NCBI RefSeq assembly: GCF_023612255.1
Contig: NZ_CP063231.1
Location: 1,222,001 to 1,286,000 of the forward strand
Length of the DNA: 64,000 bases
From: Luteibacter flocculans
GTDB taxonomy: Bacteria; Pseudomonadota; Gammaproteobacteria; Xanthomonadales; Rhodanobacteraceae
Direction of reading: 5' to 3'
Shown here in pieces: positions 46,002 to 57,539 of this stretch. How positions within the stretch are numbered: position 1 is the first letter of the stretch; each line of letters begins with the position of its first letter. The notes beneath the pieces are model-generated. The model was not told the DNA's origin. It made no database searches and worked only from the letters and a program-made list of their open reading frames with translations. The translations under genes and the position numbers were made by a program.

Positions 46002-47384
46002 ATGGCACTCACCCCGGCCCGCACCATGCCCGGTGTCCTCGAGCTCCTGCCGCTCGATCAGATCGCCTTCCAGCGTATGTTGGATACGATTCGTCGCAAT
46101 TACGAGCGCTTCGGCTTCCTGCCGATCGAGACCCCGGTCATCGAGTACAGCGACGTGTTGCTGACCAAGACCGGTGGCGAGACGGAGCGGCAGGTGTACT
46201 TCGTCCAGTCGACCGGCTCGCTGGGTGCGGCCGAGAAGGGCGAGGTGCCCGAACTGGCGCTGCGCTTCGACCTCACGGTGCCGCTGGCGCGCTATGTCGC
46301 GGAGCACGAGCACGACCTCAGCTTCCCCTTCCGTCGCTACCAGATGCAGCGCGTCTATCGTGGCGAGCGGGCGCAGCGCGGTCGCTTCCGCGAGTTCTAT
46401 CAGTGCGACATCGACGTCATCGGCAAGGATTCGCTTTCGGTGCGCTATGACGCCGAGATTCCGGCGGTGATCTACAGCGTCTTCCGCGAGCTCAACATCG
46501 GCGCGTTCACCATCCATCTCAACAACCGCAAGTTGATGCGCGGTTACTTCGAGAACCTGGGCATTGCCGACGCCACGCAGCAGATGCTCGTGCTGCGCGA
46601 GGTCGACAAGCTCGACAAGCGTGGCCCGGACTACGTACGCGATACCCTGACCGGCGACGCGTTCGGTCTCGCAGCTGACGTAGCCGACAAGATCCTTGCC
46701 TTCGTGCAGGTGCGTTCGACGTCGGTGGACGATGCATTCGCGAAGCTCGATGCGCTGGGCGCCGGTTCGGAAGCGTTCGAGCAGGGCAGGGCGGAACTGA
46801 AGGAAGTGCTCGCGATGATCCGTGACTTCGGCGTGCCGGAGACGCACTTCGCGCTCAACCTGTCCATCGCACGCGGGCTCGACTACTACACCGGCACCGT
46901 CTACGAAACCACGTTGAACGAACATCCAGGGATCGGTTCGATCTGTTCGGGTGGTCGCTACGAGAATCTGGCCGGCCAGTACACCAAGTCGCATCTGCCG
47001 GGCGTGGGTATCTCCATCGGTCTGACTCGTCTTTATTGGCAGCTTCGCGATGCGGGCCTCGTGTCCACGGCGCAGAGCACGGTGGACGTGCTGGTCACGC
47101 AGATGGATGCCGCGCAGATGCCGACGTATCTTGCGGTGGCTTCGGAACTCCGCAGTGCGGGCATCGCCACGGAGGTGGTGCTCGACGGCGGCAAGCTGGG
47201 CAAGCAGTTCAAGTACGCCGATCGCGCCGGCATCCGTTTCGTCGTGGTGCTTGGCGAAGACGAAATTGCCAAGGGCGTGGTCACGGTGAAGGACCTGCGC
47301 CGCGAAGACCAGTTTGAGGTGCCACGCGCCGATCTGGTCAAGACACTTCGCGTCGAACTGGCCCAGGCCGAAATCGGTCGCTGA
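46002..47384 (+). CDS. hisS: Histidyl-tRNA synthetase
   Basis: 460 residues with a GAGGAA site. Class II features are present: [13 protein letters not shown], motif 2 [32 protein letters not shown], the histidine motifs [13 protein letters not shown] and GGRYENL, and motif 3 [11 protein letters not shown]. The C-terminal anticodon domain follows ([28 protein letters not shown]). It belongs to the longer eukaryote-like HisRS subtype, as the RTMPGV start suggests. The lyase gene follows after 30 bp on the same strand. Confidence 0.94.
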
Positions 47385-47414
47385 ATCCTCCCACCGCATC
47401 CCACGGCGCTTCCC

Positions 47415-49310
47415 ATGACCAGCAGCATTCTTCTCGACGGGCGTAGCCTCACGCGCGCCCAGGTCGCCGCCATCGCCCGCCAGGGCGCCTCGATTCGACT
47501 CGACGAGGCGCAGTTGGTGAAAGTGAAGCGCGCTGCCGACTTTCTCGCGGAAAAGGTAGGCGGTGGGGAGCCGATCTATGGCGTCACGACCGGCTTCGGC
47601 AGCAACGCCGACAAGCTGCTCGGTGCGCACCGCGTGCGCGACGAACTGCCCGGCGGCAATCCGGAGCCGCGCGACGGAAGCCTGCTCGAAGAACTGCAGC
47701 ACAACCTGATCATCACCCACGCGGTCTGCGTCGGTAAGCCGTTCTCTATTGACGTCGTACGCGCCATGCTGGCCATTCGCGTGAACACGCTGATGCGCGG
47801 GCATTCGGGCATTCGCGTGGAAACCCTGCGCGCGCTGGCCGAACTGCTCAACCGTGACGTGATCCCGGTCATTCCGGAGAAAGGCTCGGTAGGCGCCAGC
47901 GGCGATCTCGCGCCCTTGTCGCATCTCGCCATTGTGTTGCTTGGTGGCGGCGAAGCCTTCTACAAGGGCGAGCGCATGCCGGGCGGTAAGGCACTCGCGG
48001 CAGCGGGTCTCCAGCCGGTGCGGCTCTCCTTCAAGGAGGGTCTGGCATTGAACAACGGTACGACGCAGATGCTCGCCACCGGCGTGCTCGCGCTCGACAC
48101 GATGGACATGCTGATCCGCACGGCCGACCTGGCTGCGGCGATGACCCTCGACGCCTTCGCCGGTCGCACCGGCGCCTATGCAGAAGAGGTGCATGCGTTG
48201 CGTCCGCACCCCGGGCAGGTCGCCGCTGCGCAGAACATCCGTGGTTTGCTGGAAGGCTCCACCCTCGCCGACATCGCGTACCACATGGTGCCGCGCTTCC
48301 GCCCGTGGTTGGCCGATGCATGGGCCGAGCCGAGCGAACAGGCCTACCGTTTCGACATCGGCTGGGACTGGGTGCCCGCCACGCAGCGCCACGGCAAGGA
48401 AGCGTTCTACTCGCGGTTCCTCCCGTTCAAGGGTGGCAAGAAGCACCAGCCGCAGGACGCCTACTGTCTGCGCTGCGCTCCGCAGGTCCACGGCGCGGTG
48501 CGCGATGCCTGGGAGCAGGCCTGCCGCGTGTTCGACGTTGAACTCAACGCCGTGACCGACAATCCGCTCGTGTTCCCCGATGCCGAGAACGCCGAGGTCA
48601 TCGAGGATCAGGTGATTTCCGCCGGGCATTTCCACGGCATGCCGTTGGCCCTGGCGATGAGTTACGTCAAGGCATCGATTCCGGTGCTCGCCTCGATCTC
48701 CGAGCGGCGCACCGCGAAGCTGGTCGATCCCGCCAACAACGATGGCCTGCCTGCGTTCCTGATCGGCAACGAGGACGCTACGGACTCGGGCTTCATGATC
48801 GTGCAGTACACGGCGGCAGCGCTCGTGAACGATCTCGCCACGCGTGCGCATCCTGCATCGGTGTACTCGGTACCGACGAGCGCCAATGCGGAAGACCACG
48901 TATCCATGGGTGCGAACGAGGCGCGTCACGTGCTGGAAATGACGGAAGACCTCGGCCACGTGCTTGCCATGGAGTTGTACACCGCAGCCCAGGCCCTGGA
49001 ATACCGGCAGGACATGCTCAACGCCGCGCGTGCGCTTGCACACCGGGGTGACTGGCAGGCGCTGGCCGCGAAGGTTTCCGGTGCACCACGCACCGACTCG
49101 CCGCATTACCCGCTATTCGAGCGCGAGGTGCGTGCACTCATGGACGCGCTGGCATCCGCGGACGATTTCCATGGCGGTGTGGCCGTGCGCCAAGCCTTGG
49201 CGACGCTGCGCGACCATGTGGCTTTCATGCAGCGCGATCGTGCGATGGACGGCGACGTACGCGCGGTGTGCGATCTCGTTGCATCGGGCCGTCTCGTCGC
49301 CGAGGGCTGA
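47415..49310 (+). CDS. Long-form histidine/aromatic amino acid ammonia-lyase
   Basis: 631 residues, about 120 longer than HutH. The MIO-forming triad is A161-S162-G163 in SVGASGDLAPLSHLA. Other conserved features are Tyr55 in PIYGVTTGFG, the HAL-like THA in NLIITHAVCVG, and QDAYCLRCAPQVHGA. Extra sequence is inserted before QPQDAYCLRC (about residues 283-344, Trp/Phe/Arg-rich: RFRPWLADAWAEPSEQAYRFDIGWDWVP). The enzyme removes ammonia from histidine (giving urocanate) or an aromatic amino acid. The His in THA favours histidine, but no hutU, hutI or hutG is nearby. Position next to hisS may be fortuitous. Confidence 0.8.
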   Translation: MTSSILLDGRSLTRAQVAAIARQGASIRLDEAQLVKVKRAADFLAEKVGGGEPIYGVTTGFGSNADKLLGAHRVRDELPGGNPEPRDGSLLEELQHNLIITHAVCVGKPFSIDVVRAMLAIRVNTLMRGHSGIRVETLRALAELLNRDVIPVIPEKGSVGASGDLAPLSHLAIVLLGGGEAFYKGERMPGGKALAAAGLQPVRLSFKEGLALNNGTTQMLATGVLALDTMDMLIRTADLAAAMTLDAFAGRTGAYAEEVHALRPHPGQVAAAQNIRGLLEGSTLADIAYHMVPRFRPWLADAWAEPSEQAYRFDIGWDWVPATQRHGKEAFYSRFLPFKGGKKHQPQDAYCLRCAPQVHGAVRDAWEQACRVFDVELNAVTDNPLVFPDAENAEVIEDQVISAGHFHGMPLALAMSYVKASIPVLASISERRTAKLVDPANNDGLPAFLIGNEDATDSGFMIVQYTAAALVNDLATRAHPASVYSVPTSANAEDHVSMGANEARHVLEMTEDLGHVLAMELYTAAQALEYRQDMLNAARALAHRGDWQALAAKVSGAPRTDSPHYPLFEREVRALMDALASADDFHGGVAVRQALATLRDHVAFMQRDRAMDGDVRAVCDLVASGRLVAEG

Positions 49311-50044: not shown

Positions 50045-50158
50045 GGGCGGTGGAATGGCGCCATGGTGGCGAGGGCCAGGGCCGAAATATATGGAAGAAA
50101 GGCGCAATCACGTGTCAGCGCTTGCCTTCATGCAGTCAGCGGGCTACGATGCCTTATC

Positions 50159-50176
50159 GTATTAACGCGTTAGTAC
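50159..50176 (+). promoter_or_regulatory. Candidate operator of the histidine operon
   Basis: GTATTAACGCGTTAGTAC is an 18-bp palindrome with 8 of 9 paired positions and a perfect TAACGCGTTA core (50163-50172). It ends 7 bp before the start codon of the TrpR-family gene. Shape and outer bases resemble the E. coli trp operator half-sites (GTACT...AGTAC). A TrpR-family product is encoded immediately downstream, so self-repression is a reasonable inference. Confidence 0.6.
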
Positions 50177-50182
50177 ATTATC

Positions 50183-50500
50183 ATGAAGCGACGCTCGATC
50201 GACCCCGAAACGCCAGCGGATTCCGCCGAGACCAGCCTCTGCGAGGCCTTGGCGGCGCTCTCCACCGTGGAAGAAATGCGCGCATTTCTTCATGACCTGT
50301 GCACCCCCGCCGAGATCGAGGTGATGGTGGATCGCTGGCGCGTGGTGCCGCACTTGCTGGAAGGGCGCTCGTATCGGGAGATTCACGAGCGCACGTCGGT
50401 CAGCATCACCACCATCGGTCGAGTGGCCCGGTACCTCAATCAGGGCAACGGCGGGTACATGGCCGCCGCGGCGCGCCGCAACCTGGGAGGTAACGTATGA
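50183..50500 (+). CDS. TrpR-family regulator (YerC/YecD type) heading the histidine operon
   Basis: 105 residues. The helical core [75 protein letters not shown] matches the Trp repressor superfamily, with a helix-turn-helix at about residues 61-85. No ribosome binding site is visible, and the operator-like palindrome lies only 7 bp upstream, so the mRNA may be leaderless or have a very short leader. Its stop overlaps hisG by 4 bp. It is likely the repressor of the his operon, responding to histidine or a pathway intermediate; this is inferred from position. Confidence 0.85.
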
Positions 50501-51390
50501 AGCCGCGTGATCGACTCCGTATCGCCATGCAGAAATCCGGCCGCCTCACCGAGCCGGCCCAGGAACTGCTCGCTCGCTGCGGCCTGAAGTTCCGGCAGAG
50601 CCGCGACAAGCTGTTCTGCTTCGGCGAAGGCGAGCCTGTGGACTTGTTGCTGGTGCGCGACGACGACATCCCGGGTCTCATCGCCGAAGGCGTCTGCGAT
50701 CTGGGCATCGTGGGTCGCAATGTGCTCCGGGAATTCCAGCTATCGAATCCCGAACTGGGCGAGGGCCTCGACGCATTGCGTTCGCTCGGCTTCGGCCACT
50801 GCCGCCTGTCCATTGCGGTGCCGCAGGAAGACGCCTACGACGGCCCGGCGCAATTGGCGGGGCAGCGCATCGCCACGTCGTATCCGGGCCTGCTGGGCGA
50901 ATGGCTGCGTACGCATGGTGTCGAGGCAAAGGTCGTCATGCTCGCGGGCTCCGTCGAGATCGCGCCGCGCCTCGGCACGGCAGATGCCATCTGCGACCTC
51001 GTCTCCAGCGGCGCCACGCTGGTTGCCAATCAGTTGCGTGAAGCGGCGGTGGTCATCGAGAGCGAAGCCGTGCTGGCGGGTCGCCGCGAGCTACCGGCCG
51101 ACGAGCGCGGTGAGATCGCCGAACTGCTGCTGCGTCGCCTTGACGGCGTGATTCAGGTGCGCGATTCGCGCCTGATCCTCATGCAGGCGCCGCGCGATGC
51201 GCTCGCGGCCATCACGCGCTTGTTGCCCGGCAGCCCGGTACCGACGCTCACCCCCGTGGACGGCGCGCCCGATCACGTCGTGCTGCAGGCGCTGTGCGCG
51301 GGCTCGGTGAGCTGGCGGCAGTTGGAAGACATGAAACGCGCCGGTGCCCGCGACATGCTGGTGCTGCCGGTGGAGAAGATGCTGGCATGA
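50497..51390 (+). CDS. hisG: ATP phosphoribosyltransferase (long form)
   Basis: 297 residues. It starts histidine synthesis by joining ATP and PRPP. Features are [47 protein letters not shown], the PRPP loop region [23 protein letters not shown], and a C-terminal regulatory domain of about 80 residues ([16 protein letters not shown]) as in feedback-inhibited long-form enzymes. The start overlaps the upstream regulator gene by 4 bp, and the stop overlaps hisD. Confidence 0.96.
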
Positions 51391-52694
51391 AACGGATCGA
51401 TTGGAAGACTCTCGACGAGGCAGGTCGCGAGGCAGCGCTTGCGCGCCCGGCTCAATCACGCGCGACAGAGCTTCGCAGCGGGGTGGAGGCCATCATCGCG
51501 GCGGTACGTCGCGGCGGCGATGCCACCTTGCGTGAACTCACCGCCCGCTACGATCGCATCGCGCTCGAAGACCTCGTCGTGAGCGAGGACGAATTCGCCG
51601 CCGCAGAGGCGCGCTTGCTCCCCGAACTCAAGGCGGCAATTCGCGAGGCCGCGGGACGTGTGGAAACGTTCCATCGCGCCGCCGCGCCGGGCCCCGTCGC
51701 CGTCGACACCGCACCGGGCGTGCGTGTCGAACGTGTGCTGCGTCCGATCGGTCGTGTCGGCCTCTATGTGCCTGCTGGCGGTGCGCCACTGCCATCCACC
51801 GCGATCATGCTGGGTGTGCCGGCCGCCATCGCCGGATGCCGCGAGGTCGTGCTGTGTACCCCCGTGCAGGCCAACGGACGCTGCGACGACGCCGTGCTGT
51901 TCGCCGCGAGAGCCACGGGTGTGCATCGGGTCTTCAAGCTCGGCGGCGCGCAGGCCATCGCCGCCATGGCCTATGGCACCGCGTCGGTACCCCGCTGCGA
52001 CAAGTTGTTCGGCCCTGGCAACGCCTGGGTCACGGAGGCGAAGCTGCAGGTAGCGGGTGATCCCGACGGCGCCGCCATCGATATGCCGGCTGGCCCGTCG
52101 GAGGTGCTGGTGATCGCCGATGCCGACGCCGATCCCGTCTTCGTCGCCGCCGATCTGCTTTCGCAAGCCGAGCATGGTCCGGATTCGCAGGTGCTGCTTG
52201 TGAGCCCCTCGGCGGACCTGCTCGATCGCGTCGAACATGAGTTAGAGCGTCAACGCGCCGCGCTGCCGCGTGCCGCCGTGGCCGCCGATGCGCTTGCCAA
52301 CAGCCGCCTCGTGCTCGTCGCCGACGTGCTGGAGGCGGTGGAGGTCAGCAACCGCTACGCGCCCGAGCATCTGATCGTGCAGACCGCGGAGCCTCGCGCT
52401 TTGTTGGATCAGGTGACCTCGGCAGGGTCCGTCTTCCTCGGCCCATGGACGCCCGAATCGCTCGGTGACTACTGCAGCGGCAGCAACCACGTGTTGCCGA
52501 CCTACGGCTACGCGCGAAGCTATAGCGGCGTATCGGTCGCCAGCTTCCAGAAGCAGGTGACCGTGCAGGAAGCCACGGCCGCTGGGCTGCGTGCGATCGG
52601 CCCCTGTGCCGCCATTCTCGCGGAAGCGGAGCAATTGGAAGCGCACCGGCGTGCGGTCACCTTGCGTCTCGCTGCCCTGGATAACGCCGCATGA
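51387..52694 (+). CDS. hisD: Histidinol dehydrogenase
   Basis: 435 residues from [18 protein letters not shown]. It oxidises histidinol to histidine in two NAD-dependent steps. Signatures are [56 protein letters not shown] and [11 protein letters not shown] with zinc ligands in the [15 protein letters not shown] region. The ATG overlaps the hisG stop by 4 bp; the longer in-frame opening at 51294 lies inside hisG. Confidence 0.97.
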
Positions 52695-53755
52695 GCGTCC
52701 TCGATCTTGCTCGTCCCGACATCCGCTCCCTGGCGCCGTATTCGAGCGCGCGCATGGAGGCACAAGGCGGCACCGTGCTGCTCAATGCCAACGAATCCTC
52801 GCGCTCGCCGAACGTTCCTGGCGGAGAAGGCCTGAATCGTTATCCCGATCCGCAGCCGCGGGTGCTGGTGGAAACGCTGGCCGAGTTGTATGGCAGCACG
52901 GCGGATCGGTTGCTGGTCACGCGTGGCAGCGACGAGGCCATCGACTTGCTCGTTCGGGCCTTCTGTCGTGCCGGCCAAGATGCCGTCGTCGTCTCGCCGC
53001 CGACGTTCGGCATGTACGCCGTCTGCGCTCGCATCCAGGGCGCATCGGTAATCGAGTCGCCGCTCCAACCCTCGGGCGCGCTGGACGCCGAGGCGCTGCT
53101 TGCGGCCGTGACGCCGACCACGAAACTGGTCTTCGTCTGCACGCCGAACAATCCCACCGGCAATCTGGTGCCGCGCGATGTGCTCGTACGCCTCGCCAGC
53201 GCGCTCACCGACCGCGCCATTCTGGTGGTCGATGAAGCCTATGCGGAGTTCAGCGGCGCCACGAGCGCGGTAACGCTGATCGACGAGTACGACAATGTTG
53301 CCGTGCTGCGCACGTTGTCGAAGGCGTGGTCACTGGCGGGTGCTCGCGTCGGTACGCTCGTCGCGCGTGCGGAGGTGATCGGCCTGCTACGGCGGATCAT
53401 TCCCCCCTATCCGTTGCCCTCGCCATGCGTGGATGCCGCGCTCGGCGCGCTTTCGTACGAAGGACGCCGCCTGCAACGTCATCACGTGCAGGAAGTGCTC
53501 GGCGAGCGCGCCCGCATGTTGGCGGAACTGTCGCGGGTTCCGGGCGTACGCGAGGTGCTTCCGTCGCACGCGAACTTCCTCGCCGTGCGTTTCGACGACG
53601 CAGCGGGCACCTATCGGCGCTTGCTGGCCGCAGGTGTGGTGGTTCGTGACATCACTCGCTATCCGGGCCTCGGTGACGCCTTGCGTATCACCGTCGGCAC
53701 GGGAAACGAGAACGATCGCGTGCTTGCGGTGCTGCGGGCAGGAGCCGCTGCATGA
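52691..53755 (+). CDS. hisC: Histidinol-phosphate aminotransferase
   Basis: 354 residues, PLP-dependent class I/II aminotransferase. Clear features are [11 protein letters not shown] near the N-terminus, [40 protein letters not shown] and the PLP Lys in [15 protein letters not shown]. It converts imidazole acetol phosphate to histidinol phosphate. It overlaps hisD and hisB by 4 bp each. Confidence 0.96.
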
Positions 53756-54816
53756 GCCGGAAAATCCTCTTCATCGATCGTGACGGCTGCCTCATCGAGG
53801 AGCCCGCCGACGAGCAGATCGACAGTTACGAGAAACTCGCGCTTGCCCCGGGCGTGATCGCCGCCTTGCAACGTTGTGTCGGTGCAGGCTACGAACTGGT
53901 CATGGTCACCAACCAGGACGGCTTGGGCACGCCGTCGTTCCCGCAGGAGGCATTCGACGGGCCGCACGCGCTGCTGCTGCGTATTCTTTCGTCGCAGGGC
54001 ATCGTATTTCGCGAGCAATTGATCGACCGCAGCTTTCCGCACGAGCAGCGCGATACCCGAAAGCCCGCTACGGGGCTGGCCCGTCACTGGCTGGCCGACG
54101 ATAGCTGGAGCCGCGCGCAATCCGCCATGATCGGCGATCGCGAATCGGACATGGTGTTTGCCGCCAACATGGGTGTCCGTGGGCTACGTGTGGGCCGCGA
54201 AGGCATGAGCTGGAGCGAGGTCGCCCACCAACTCCTCGATGCGCCGCGCACAGCAGAGGTAATGCGCAAGACGCGCGAGACGTCGATCCGCGTTGCCGTC
54301 GATCTGGATCGCGTTGCCGATCCTGTCGCCCAGACCGGACTGCGCTTCTTCGATCACATGCTCGAGCAGATCGGCAAGCACGGTGGCTTCGCGCTCGAAT
54401 TACGCTGTGACGGCGACACCGACGTCGACGAACATCACACCATCGAGGACTGCGCGCTGGCGCTGGGTCAGGCACTGCGCCAGGCGCTCGGTGACAAGCG
54501 CGGCATCGGTCGTTACGGTTTCGCCTTGCCCATGGACGAGAGCGCGGCACGCGCAGAACTGGACCTCTCGGGCCGTCCGTATTTCGTCTTCGACGGTCAC
54601 TTCCCGCGCGAGCGGGTCGGTGACGTGCCCACCGAACTCGTACCGCATTTCTTCCGTTCCCTGTGCGAGACGCTCGGCGCCAACCTGCATCTTTCGGTGC
54701 ATGGCGAGAACGCGCATCACATGGTGGAGGGCTGCTTCAAGGCGGTCGCACGTTGCCTGCGCCAGGCCATCCGGCGGGAAGGCGAGGAACTGCCGAGCAC
54801 GAAGGGGAGCCTCTGA
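53752..54816 (+). CDS. hisB: Bifunctional histidinol-phosphatase / imidazoleglycerol-phosphate dehydratase
   Basis: 354 residues with two domains. The N-terminal HAD phosphatase (about 1-165) has the DxD nucleophile in [21 protein letters not shown] and a C-terminal [16 protein letters not shown] motif. The dehydratase domain (about 166-354) has [34 protein letters not shown] and [19 protein letters not shown] with manganese-binding His and Glu. The fused form is typical of gammaproteobacteria. The stop overlaps the hisH start by 1 bp. Confidence 0.96.
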
Positions 54817-55406
54817 TGAGCGTGGTTCTCGTCGATGCCGGTGGTACCAATATCGGTTCGGTGCGTTATGCGTTGCAGCGCCTGGGTGCCGACGCCGAAC
54901 TCACGTCGGATGCCGATCGCATTCGTTCGGCGCGGCACGTCATCCTGCCGGGTGTCGGGGCCGCGGGTCCTGGCATGCGCATGCTGCGCGAGGCCGGCTT
55001 GGTCGACGTTCTGCGCGGACTGACCCAGCCCGTGCTCGGTGTGTGCCTCGGCATGCAATTGCTTTGCGAGCGCTCCGACGAGGGCGACACCGAGTGCCTC
55101 GGCGTGATTCCCGCGAGCGTGCGTCATATGGTCGGCGGACCCGGACTGCGCATTCCGCACATGGGCTGGAACGGCCTGCGCGTGACCCGGTCGCATCCAC
55201 TCGTGGATGGGCTTCGCCATGACGACAGTGCGTACTTCGTGCACAGCTATGCCGTTCCCGACGGCGACTATGCACTGGCGACCACCGACCACGGCCAGCC
55301 GTTCGCTGCGGTGATTGCCTCGGGCAACTTCATGGGCATGCAATTCCACCCCGAGCGTTCGGCGGGCGTGGGTGCACAACTCCTGCAGAATTTTCTCTCG
55401 CTATGA
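54816..55406 (+). CDS. hisH: Imidazole glycerol phosphate synthase glutaminase subunit
   Basis: 196 residues from [20 protein letters not shown]. It is a class I glutamine amidotransferase that supplies ammonia to HisF. The nucleophile Cys is in VLGVCLGMQLL, with the catalytic His and Glu in GMQFHPERSAGVG. Start TGATG overlaps the hisB stop; the longer in-frame opening at 54663 lies in hisB. It overlaps hisA by 4 bp. Confidence 0.96.
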   Translation: MSVVLVDAGGTNIGSVRYALQRLGADAELTSDADRIRSARHVILPGVGAAGPGMRMLREAGLVDVLRGLTQPVLGVCLGMQLLCERSDEGDTECLGVIPASVRHMVGGPGLRIPHMGWNGLRVTRSHPLVDGLRHDDSAYFVHSYAVPDGDYALATTDHGQPFAAVIASGNFMGMQFHPERSAGVGAQLLQNFLSL

Positions 55407-56155
55407 CACTTCCCATTCCCGCCATCGACCTGCGCGGCGGCCAGGTCGTCCGCCTCTACCAGGGCGACTACGCGCAGCAGACGACCTTCGCCTTCGCGCC
55501 CGATGTCCTGGCCGCGCGGTATGCCGACGAAGGTGCCACCTGGTTGCATGTGGTCGATCTCGACGGCGCGCGTTCCGGCCAGTTCGAGAACCTCGCCACG
55601 ATCGCCGCCATCGCTTCGGCAGGACGGTTGCGCGTACAGGCCGGCGGCGGCATTCGCGACGAGGCCAGCGTGCGTCGCCTGCTCGATGCCGGCGTCGAAC
55701 GCGTGGTGGTCGGCAGCATGGCGATACGCGAACCGAAGACGGTAGCGGAGTGGATCGCCCGGCTTGGTCCGGAGCGGATCGTGCTTGCCCTGGATACGCG
55801 TTTTCGCGACGGCGCCTGGGCGCTGCCCAGCGCCGGCTGGACGGCCGACGAGGCGAACACGCTCGATGATCTGTTGCCGTGGTACCAAGCGGCGGGCGCC
55901 AAGCATGTGCTTTGCACCGACATCGATCGCGACGGCACCATGACCGGCCCCAATCGTGCGTTGTATCGCCACCTTGCCGCACTTGCACCCGCCATGGCGA
56001 TACAGGCGTCGGGCGGCGTGCGCTCGCTCGACGATGTCGCTGCGCTGACGGTCCAGGGCGTGGCCGGGGTCATTCTCGGTCGGTCGCTGCTGGAGGGGGC
56101 CTTCACGCTGCCCGATGCGTTTCGCGTTGCTGCGAAGGCAGGTGCCACATGTTGA
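55403..56155 (+). CDS. hisA: ProFAR isomerase HisA
   Basis: 250 residues of a (beta/alpha)8 barrel. The substrate-binding half-barrel repeats are visible: [18 protein letters not shown] with the catalytic Asp, [54 protein letters not shown] with the second catalytic Asp, and [14 protein letters not shown]. It opens the ribose of ProFAR to PRFAR. It overlaps hisF by 7 bp. Confidence 0.96.
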
Positions 56156-56919
56156 GCCGTCGCATCGTGCCTTGCCTCGACGTGCGCGACGGTCAGGTGG
56201 TGAAGGGCGTACGTTTCCGCGATCACGTCGTGGTCGGTGAGATCGTGGAGCTCGCCCTGCGCTATCGCGACGAAGGCGCGGACGAGCTCGTGTTCTACGA
56301 CATCACGGCAAGCCCGGAAGGGCGTCGGGTCGATCGCGACTGGGTGGAACGCGTGGCGCGGGAGATCGACATTCCGTTCTGCGTTGCCGGCGGCATTCGT
56401 AGCGTCGGCGATGCGCGCGAGGTCCTGCATGCGGGCGCGGACAAGGTGTCGATCAATTCGCCTGCGCTGGAGCGTCCCGCACTGGTGCGAGAGATCGCCG
56501 ACGCGTTCGGTGTGCAATGCGTCGTCGTTGGTGTGGACAGTCTGCGTGACGACGACGGTGAGTGGCGTGTGCGGCAATACACGGGAGATCCTTCGCGTAC
56601 GCGCGCGCTCGGCAAACGCACGCTGGACTGGATCGAGGAAGTCCAGCAGTTGGGTGCCGGTGAGATCGTACTCAATTGCATGGGAACCGACGGTGTGCGC
56701 CGTGGCTACGACATCGCGCAGCTCAAGGCGGCGCGTGCGGTGGCGGATGTGCCACTGGTCGCGTCCGGTGGTGCCGGCAGCGCGCAGCACTTCGTCGATG
56801 TGTTTCGCCAGGCGGACGTGGATGCCGCGCTCGCGGCGAGCGTGTTCCACACCGGCGAGATCGGCATTCCCGAGTTGAAGCGCCAATTGAAGGCGGAAGG
56901 TATCGAGGTGAGGACATGA
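56149..56919 (+). CDS. hisF: Imidazole glycerol phosphate synthase cyclase subunit
   Basis: 256 residues from [23 protein letters not shown], the canonical HisF start. Further motifs are [67 protein letters not shown] with the second catalytic Asp, and [18 protein letters not shown]. It makes IGP and AICAR with ammonia from HisH. Its stop overlaps hisIE by 4 bp. Confidence 0.97.
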
Positions 56920-57539
56920 GCGACGGACAAGCCGATTTCGCGAAGGGTAGCGGCCTGCTGCCGGCCATCGTGCAACATGCGCGCACCGGCGAAGTGTTGA
57001 TGCTGGGCTATATGGACGAGGCTGCACTGGCGGCGACGCGCGAGGACGGGCGCGTCACATTCTTCAGTCGCAGCAAGGGGCGCTTGTGGACGAAAGGCGA
57101 GACCTCGGGCAACACGCTGATGACCGTTGACGTGCGCCTGGATTGCGATGCCGACACGATTCTCGTGCGTGCGCTGCCCGCCGGTCCCACCTGCCACAAC
57201 GGAACATCGAGCTGCTTTGGCGACGACGTGGCGCCAAAGCTCGGCTTCCTCGCCGAATTGGACGCACTCGTGGCCGAGCGTCACGCGCAGCGCCCGCAGG
57301 GAAGCTACACGACGACGTTGTTCGATGGCGGTATGCGGCGCATCGCCCAGAAAGTGGGCGAGGAGGGTGTGGAGACGGCGCTGGCCGTGGTCGCCGAGGA
57401 TGACGACGCGCTGGTCGGCGAAGCCGCCGACCTGGTGTTCCACCTCATGGTGGCCTTGCGTGCACGGGGCATCGGTTTCGATGCCGTCGCCGCGAAACTT
57501 GCGTCACGCCATGCAACGGCACGCATGACCTCGCCCTGA
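56916..57539 (+). CDS. hisI: Bifunctional PR-AMP cyclohydrolase / PR-ATP pyrophosphatase
   Basis: 207 residues with two fused activities (HisIE). The HisI part has [42 protein letters not shown], then zinc-binding [26 protein letters not shown]. The HisE part has [30 protein letters not shown] and [20 protein letters not shown]. These carry out steps two and three of the pathway. It ends the operon, with a terminator 6 bp after the stop. Confidence 0.96.

Follow-up and report, generated by a model that had tools for sequence, protein, structure and literature searches.

How is histidine synthesis controlled in a bacterium whose his operon carries a palindrome immediately in front of its first gene? 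We examined this question in a 64-kb stretch of DNA (the window), in which the 18-mer GTATTAACGCGTTAGTAC occupies positions 50159-50176, letters and coordinates matching exactly. A first-pass annotation had called it a TrpR-type operator, and had suggested that repressor control of the operon takes the place of attenuation. Our analysis supports a closely related reading, to which we assign a probability of about 0.93: HisR, encoded directly downstream, uses the palindrome as its operator and represses the operon hisR-hisG-D-C-B-H-A-F-IE. The features on which this reading draws are as follows.

50122..50127, + strand: predicted -35 element TTGCCT, 17 nt from the -10 element; TTGCC block in the profile of 80 relatives
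50145..50150, + strand: predicted -10 element TACGAT; TATnAT-like block and an A conserved in relatives
50158..50177, no strand assigned: predicted HisR operator, the 20-bp palindrome CGTATTAACGCGTTAGTACA as the natural unit; called from uniqueness, conservation, matrix score and symmetry
50183..50500, + strand: hisR, TrpR-superfamily repressor of the YerC/YecD type, 105 aa (TIGR02531, PF01371, PDB relatives)
50497..51390, + strand: hisG (PF01634, PF08029); start overlaps the hisR stop, Shine-Dalgarno sequence GGAGGT
51387..52694, + strand: hisD (PF00815)
52691..53755, + strand: hisC, aminotransferase named by operon position (PF00155)
53752..54816, + strand: hisB, HAD-like phosphatase part and IGPD (PF00475, PF13242)
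54813..55406, + strand: hisH, named by operon position (PF00117)
55403..56155, + strand: hisA (PF00977)
56149..56919, + strand: hisF, open reading frame named from its position and a reading of its translation
56676..57539, + strand: hisIE reading frame, true start probably further in (PF01502, PF01503)

Domains of hisG, D, C, B, H, A and IE thus follow hisR in frames that overlap or abut. Just 5' of the operon, on the same strand (46002-49310), we also observed an open reading frame that reads as histidyl-tRNA-synthetase-like and an aromatic amino acid lyase (PF00221).

The palindrome and its promoter

The site is almost perfectly palindromic, as the first-pass annotation had noted, with 16 of 18 positions self-complementary. 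Palindromy by itself was nevertheless dropped as proof of an operator, since a self-complementarity of at least 16/18 is reached by 20 18-mers of the window, including the site. Other measures set the site apart. When up to three mismatches were allowed on both strands of the window, GTATTAACGCGTTAGTAC matched only itself, and 100 shuffles yielded no match. On a symmetrised motif matrix, built from 31 distinct sites of relatives, it scored 35.7 bits. No place in the 64 kb clear of the site scored above -3.0; two shifted registers overlapping it gave 1.3 and 0.2. The matrix scan found no further HisR-like site elsewhere in the window. Across the organism's own genome (4.3 Mb), the exact pattern GTANTAN6TANTAC occurs once, at this site. 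Two places carry one mismatch (137170 and 189154), and both were rejected, the best matrix scores per locus being 0.0 (elsewhere in L003) and -11.5.

Upstream of the operator is a conserved -35/-10 pair, and downstream of it the ATG at 50183. The promoter itself is a prediction drawn from comparison with relatives, in which an information profile of 80 loci shows the order TTGCC, 17 nt, TATnAT, 9 nt and the 20-bp operator; the gap from TTGCC to the operator is 2 nt wider in the relatives than in the window. A strict scan for the sigma-70 consensus returned no match for the window promoter, a result that counts against the call. Transcription would start at A50156, giving a predicted leader of about 27 nt. 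The operator fills most of this leader and therefore leaves no room for an attenuator. Upstream of hisR there is no clear Shine-Dalgarno sequence: the longest match was 3 nt in 77 of 80 loci, and the remaining three had none. For hisG, by comparison, the match was at least 4 nt in 76/80 loci. The absence of a recognisable Shine-Dalgarno sequence may hold the level of the repressor low.

Conservation and co-occurrence across the order

A protein search of named genomes returned 169 relatives; we kept the 80 best, among them the closest, Luteibacter. All 80 have the palindrome before hisR, every copy matching at least 9 of the 10 core bases. In 79 of them the 18-mer begins 21 nt ahead of the aligned start codon, leaving the palindrome 2 nt before that codon; in the window the gap from operator to ATG is three bases longer. 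The exception (L041) carries the 18-mer at -67, adjoining an in-frame TTG (frame read by eye). In the profile of these relatives, the operator forms a high-information block with many invariant columns between diverged flanks, and conservation beyond it is confined to the -35 and -10 elements and a handful of positions before the start. This conservation lifts GTATTAACGCGTTAGTAC above chance.

The motif search before his operons of the order that the first-pass annotation had proposed extends this beyond the closest relatives. A matrix score of at least 18 was found in 29 of the 30 best-scoring order loci (L085-L114; L113 reached 12.7) and in 18 of 19 hand-picked ones, the exception, L237, having almost no upstream sequence. 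Counting loci that had been retrieved with the pattern (L116-L120, L131-L145) would be circular, and they were left out; L233, with 10 bases, was dropped. The hisG gene lies downstream of hisR and in the same orientation in all 110 loci (80/80 relatives and 30/30 order loci), at a distance of at most 150 nt in 79/80 and 30/30, respectively.

PF01371 was detected in 348 of 398 order genomes, 347 of them above the cut-off. The 50 hisR-less genomes were obtained by subtraction, and the 30 that were re-tested were all negative. Among the 50, hisD was diverged in 27 (33-41% identity), not found in 21, many of which are incomplete assemblies, and of the close type in two (G382 and G196), where it begins at a contig edge and is cut off. 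A complete close-type hisD with upstream sequence was thus found in none of the 50. Of the 398 genomes, 277 contain the strict site pattern: 267 of the 348 with hisR and 10 of the 50 without (by subtraction). We took these 10 matches as chance occurrences: they have AT-rich middles and lie on another contig than hisD or some 55 kb away. Regulator, site and this type of his operon travel together.

In one family of the order (f9; for example, L150-L164), most genomes lack hisR, and their hisD shows 33-41% identity, as though other his genes had taken the place of the original ones; RF00514 was not found there. The family also includes three hisR-positive genomes, which have a close-type hisD (57-58%), with the site upstream on the same contig.

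The regulator and competing explanations

The first gene of the operon encodes, as the first-pass annotation had recognised, a TrpR-family protein of the YerC/YecD type. Its product passes TIGR02531 (YerC/YecD; 59.4 bits, cut-off 42.2) and PF01371 (82.4 bits, cut-off 27), and a PF01371 search of the genome detected no other TrpR-superfamily member. We propose that a HisR dimer, probably with histidine as co-repressor, binds the 20-bp site. Bound HisR would cover the transcription start and block RNA polymerase, and would so repress the his genes and, by autoregulation, itself. The role of histidine is proposed by analogy with the Ruminococcus gnavus HisR described in the consulted parts of Ashniev et al. 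(2022, PMC9413887).

Could the regulator instead be a true TrpR that controls the operon with tryptophan? The ends of the operator do resemble the trp operator, a likeness the first-pass annotation had pointed out, and 10 of the 16 specified positions of the TrpR motif agree with the site (motif as printed in the consulted part of PMC9413887). Arg65 of HisR, moreover, is invariant in 38/38 aligned relatives (38 of 81 available proteins were aligned) and aligns with TrpR Arg69. This TrpR residue contacts an operator guanine. Against these resemblances, the product fails the TrpR equivalog TIGR01321 (31.1 bits, cut-off 67.25) while passing TIGR02531. Its nearest solved sequences are the HisR-type chains 3frw, 3g1c and 3kor (E 8e-12 to 7e-10), whereas TrpR chains in the PDB match only at 0.03 or worse. 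The residues that we take to form the tryptophan pocket of TrpR, Leu41, Leu43 and Gly85, are Asp, Cys and Val in the HisR alignment, and the gene heads his genes, not trp genes. Control by TrpR is accordingly very improbable; in the label "TrpR-type operator", the superfamily part holds and the regulator is HisR instead. At the Arg69 position, three solved Gram-positive homologues have Leu, Leu and Ala. This difference fits, as far as the alignments go, a TrpR-like GTA outer half-site here and another motif in Firmicutes.

Attenuation by a leader peptide, or another RNA device with the palindrome incidental or acting as an RNA hairpin, is the rule-based expectation from enterics, where attenuation prevails, and a four-histidine run does occur in an alternative frame within hisR (near 50383-50430). 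That run arises because the stretch holds the codons of conserved HTH residues. In addition to the short predicted leader, the covariance model His_leader (RF00514) had no match in the window, and a large-scale search with stricter filters found it above the cut-off in 0 of 398 order genomes, with one sub-threshold match (G224). No terminator was found between 50030 and 50520. RNA folding at the leader start was no better than that of shuffles (z = 0.52), a result that favours an element acting as DNA over one acting as RNA. The attenuator and the hairpin reading were both rejected on these grounds, and we regard an RNA-based explanation as having next to no likelihood. The search for an attenuator, which the first-pass annotation had named as a route to refutation, thus came out in favour of its suggestion, and operator, first gene, operon and absent His_leader together suggest repressor control in place of attenuation.

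A third reading has HisR binding here yet controlling only itself, or acting as an activator. The ribosome-binding site of hisG (GGAGGT) is much better than that of hisR, so that separate control of hisG is possible. The start of hisG, however, overlaps the stop of hisR, and an operator placed over the predicted start point occupies the position of a repressor. We consider this reading very improbable, and favour repression of the whole operon by HisR.

Further sites and relation to known HisR regulons

In related genera, not that of the window, we observed the same palindrome in the region separating gyrB from a TPR-tonB-exbB cluster, where a sigma-28-like promoter is often found next to it. 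The palindrome lies just 3' of an apparent gyrB terminator and is kept in several related genera (L182-L200, L221, L226-L229). Matches to GYRNTARYGCRYTANYRC were found a few hundred bases upstream of the TPR-protein gene in at least 19 of 117 family genomes (paired by eye). Seven such regions from different genomes were inspected, the frames being named by reading translations: in 7/7 the site has a gyrB frame on one side and a TPR frame on the other, and an ExbB-like frame was seen in 6/7 and a TonB-like frame in 3/7. Of 50 gyrB-TPR loci, an uneven sample of the 30 best TPR matches and 20 chosen by hand, 49 were evaluable; 23 of these scored at least 17, while 100 mononucleotide shuffles per locus never exceeded 14.1. 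The palindrome was present in none of the nine gyrB-TPR loci of the window's own genus (L206, L212-L219). A sigma-28-like motif occurred in 14 of the 49 loci, against 1.2 expected, and 13 of the 14 share the region with the palindrome. Towards the TPR gene, some 100 nt separate the palindrome from a conserved block, so that the palindrome does not obviously sit where a simple repressor would bind.

These observations lead us to raise, tentatively and at less than even odds, that related Rhodanobacteraceae genera possess a second, unreported HisR operator between gyrB and the TPR-tonB-exbB cluster, which might couple histidine status to TonB-driven uptake through the nearby sigma-28-like promoter. 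Literature searches for HisR together with TonB and for the gyrB-tonB region showed nothing on such a site among the entries listed, and the gyrB-tonB site is absent from the consulted parts of PMC9413887. A third HisR-like site was seen in one genome (G295, L175:3001-3018), flanked on one side by a divergent gene that reads as an RND-type adaptor and on the other by unassigned frames, and inspection revealed no clear target.

As an operator of HisR, the palindrome is correctly identified but already known in kind. In the parts of PMC9413887 consulted, HisR control of hisR-his operons is predicted, with Xanthomonadales named, hisR first in the operon and the predicted site directly upstream of it; a Xanthomonas oryzae study (its reference 18) is credited there with linking a TrpR-like repressor to the his operon. 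The proteobacterial motif printed there, TGTAnTArnnnnyTnTTACA, agrees with our site at 12 of 14 positions, or 13 of 14 if the right half mirrors the left. That regulon and the present one share a TrpR-superfamily protein, its place as first his gene, an upstream site and a TrpR-like 20-bp palindrome, and show no essential difference as far as that text describes them. To it we add the promoter geometry, a hisR without a clear Shine-Dalgarno sequence, loss together with the operon, counts across the order and the gyrB-tonB site of relatives.

Two more distant systems help to place the regulator. The E. coli TrpR/trp operator pair is alike in superfamily, in the outer half-site bases GTA/TAC and in autoregulation (PMC5343134, in part), and unlike it in target pathway and inner operator bases, as well as in the equivalog score and presumed pocket residues given above. 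HisR/YerC of Firmicutes (R. gnavus) shares the family and the control of his genes, whereas its motif, cacTTTAnnnnnnTAAAgtg in the consulted part of PMC9413887, is unlike the operator here, and the Gram-positive Leu/Leu/Ala stands where the present HisR has Arg. The same source reports histidine-dependent DNA binding for the R. gnavus protein, the only HisR for which, within its consulted text, the literature shows such binding.

Our larger sample confirms that the order controls histidine synthesis by an autoregulated DNA-binding repressor and not by an attenuator, repressor and operator being absent where this type of his operon is absent. With its compact promoter, the locus provides a clean test case for a proteobacterial HisR in vitro.
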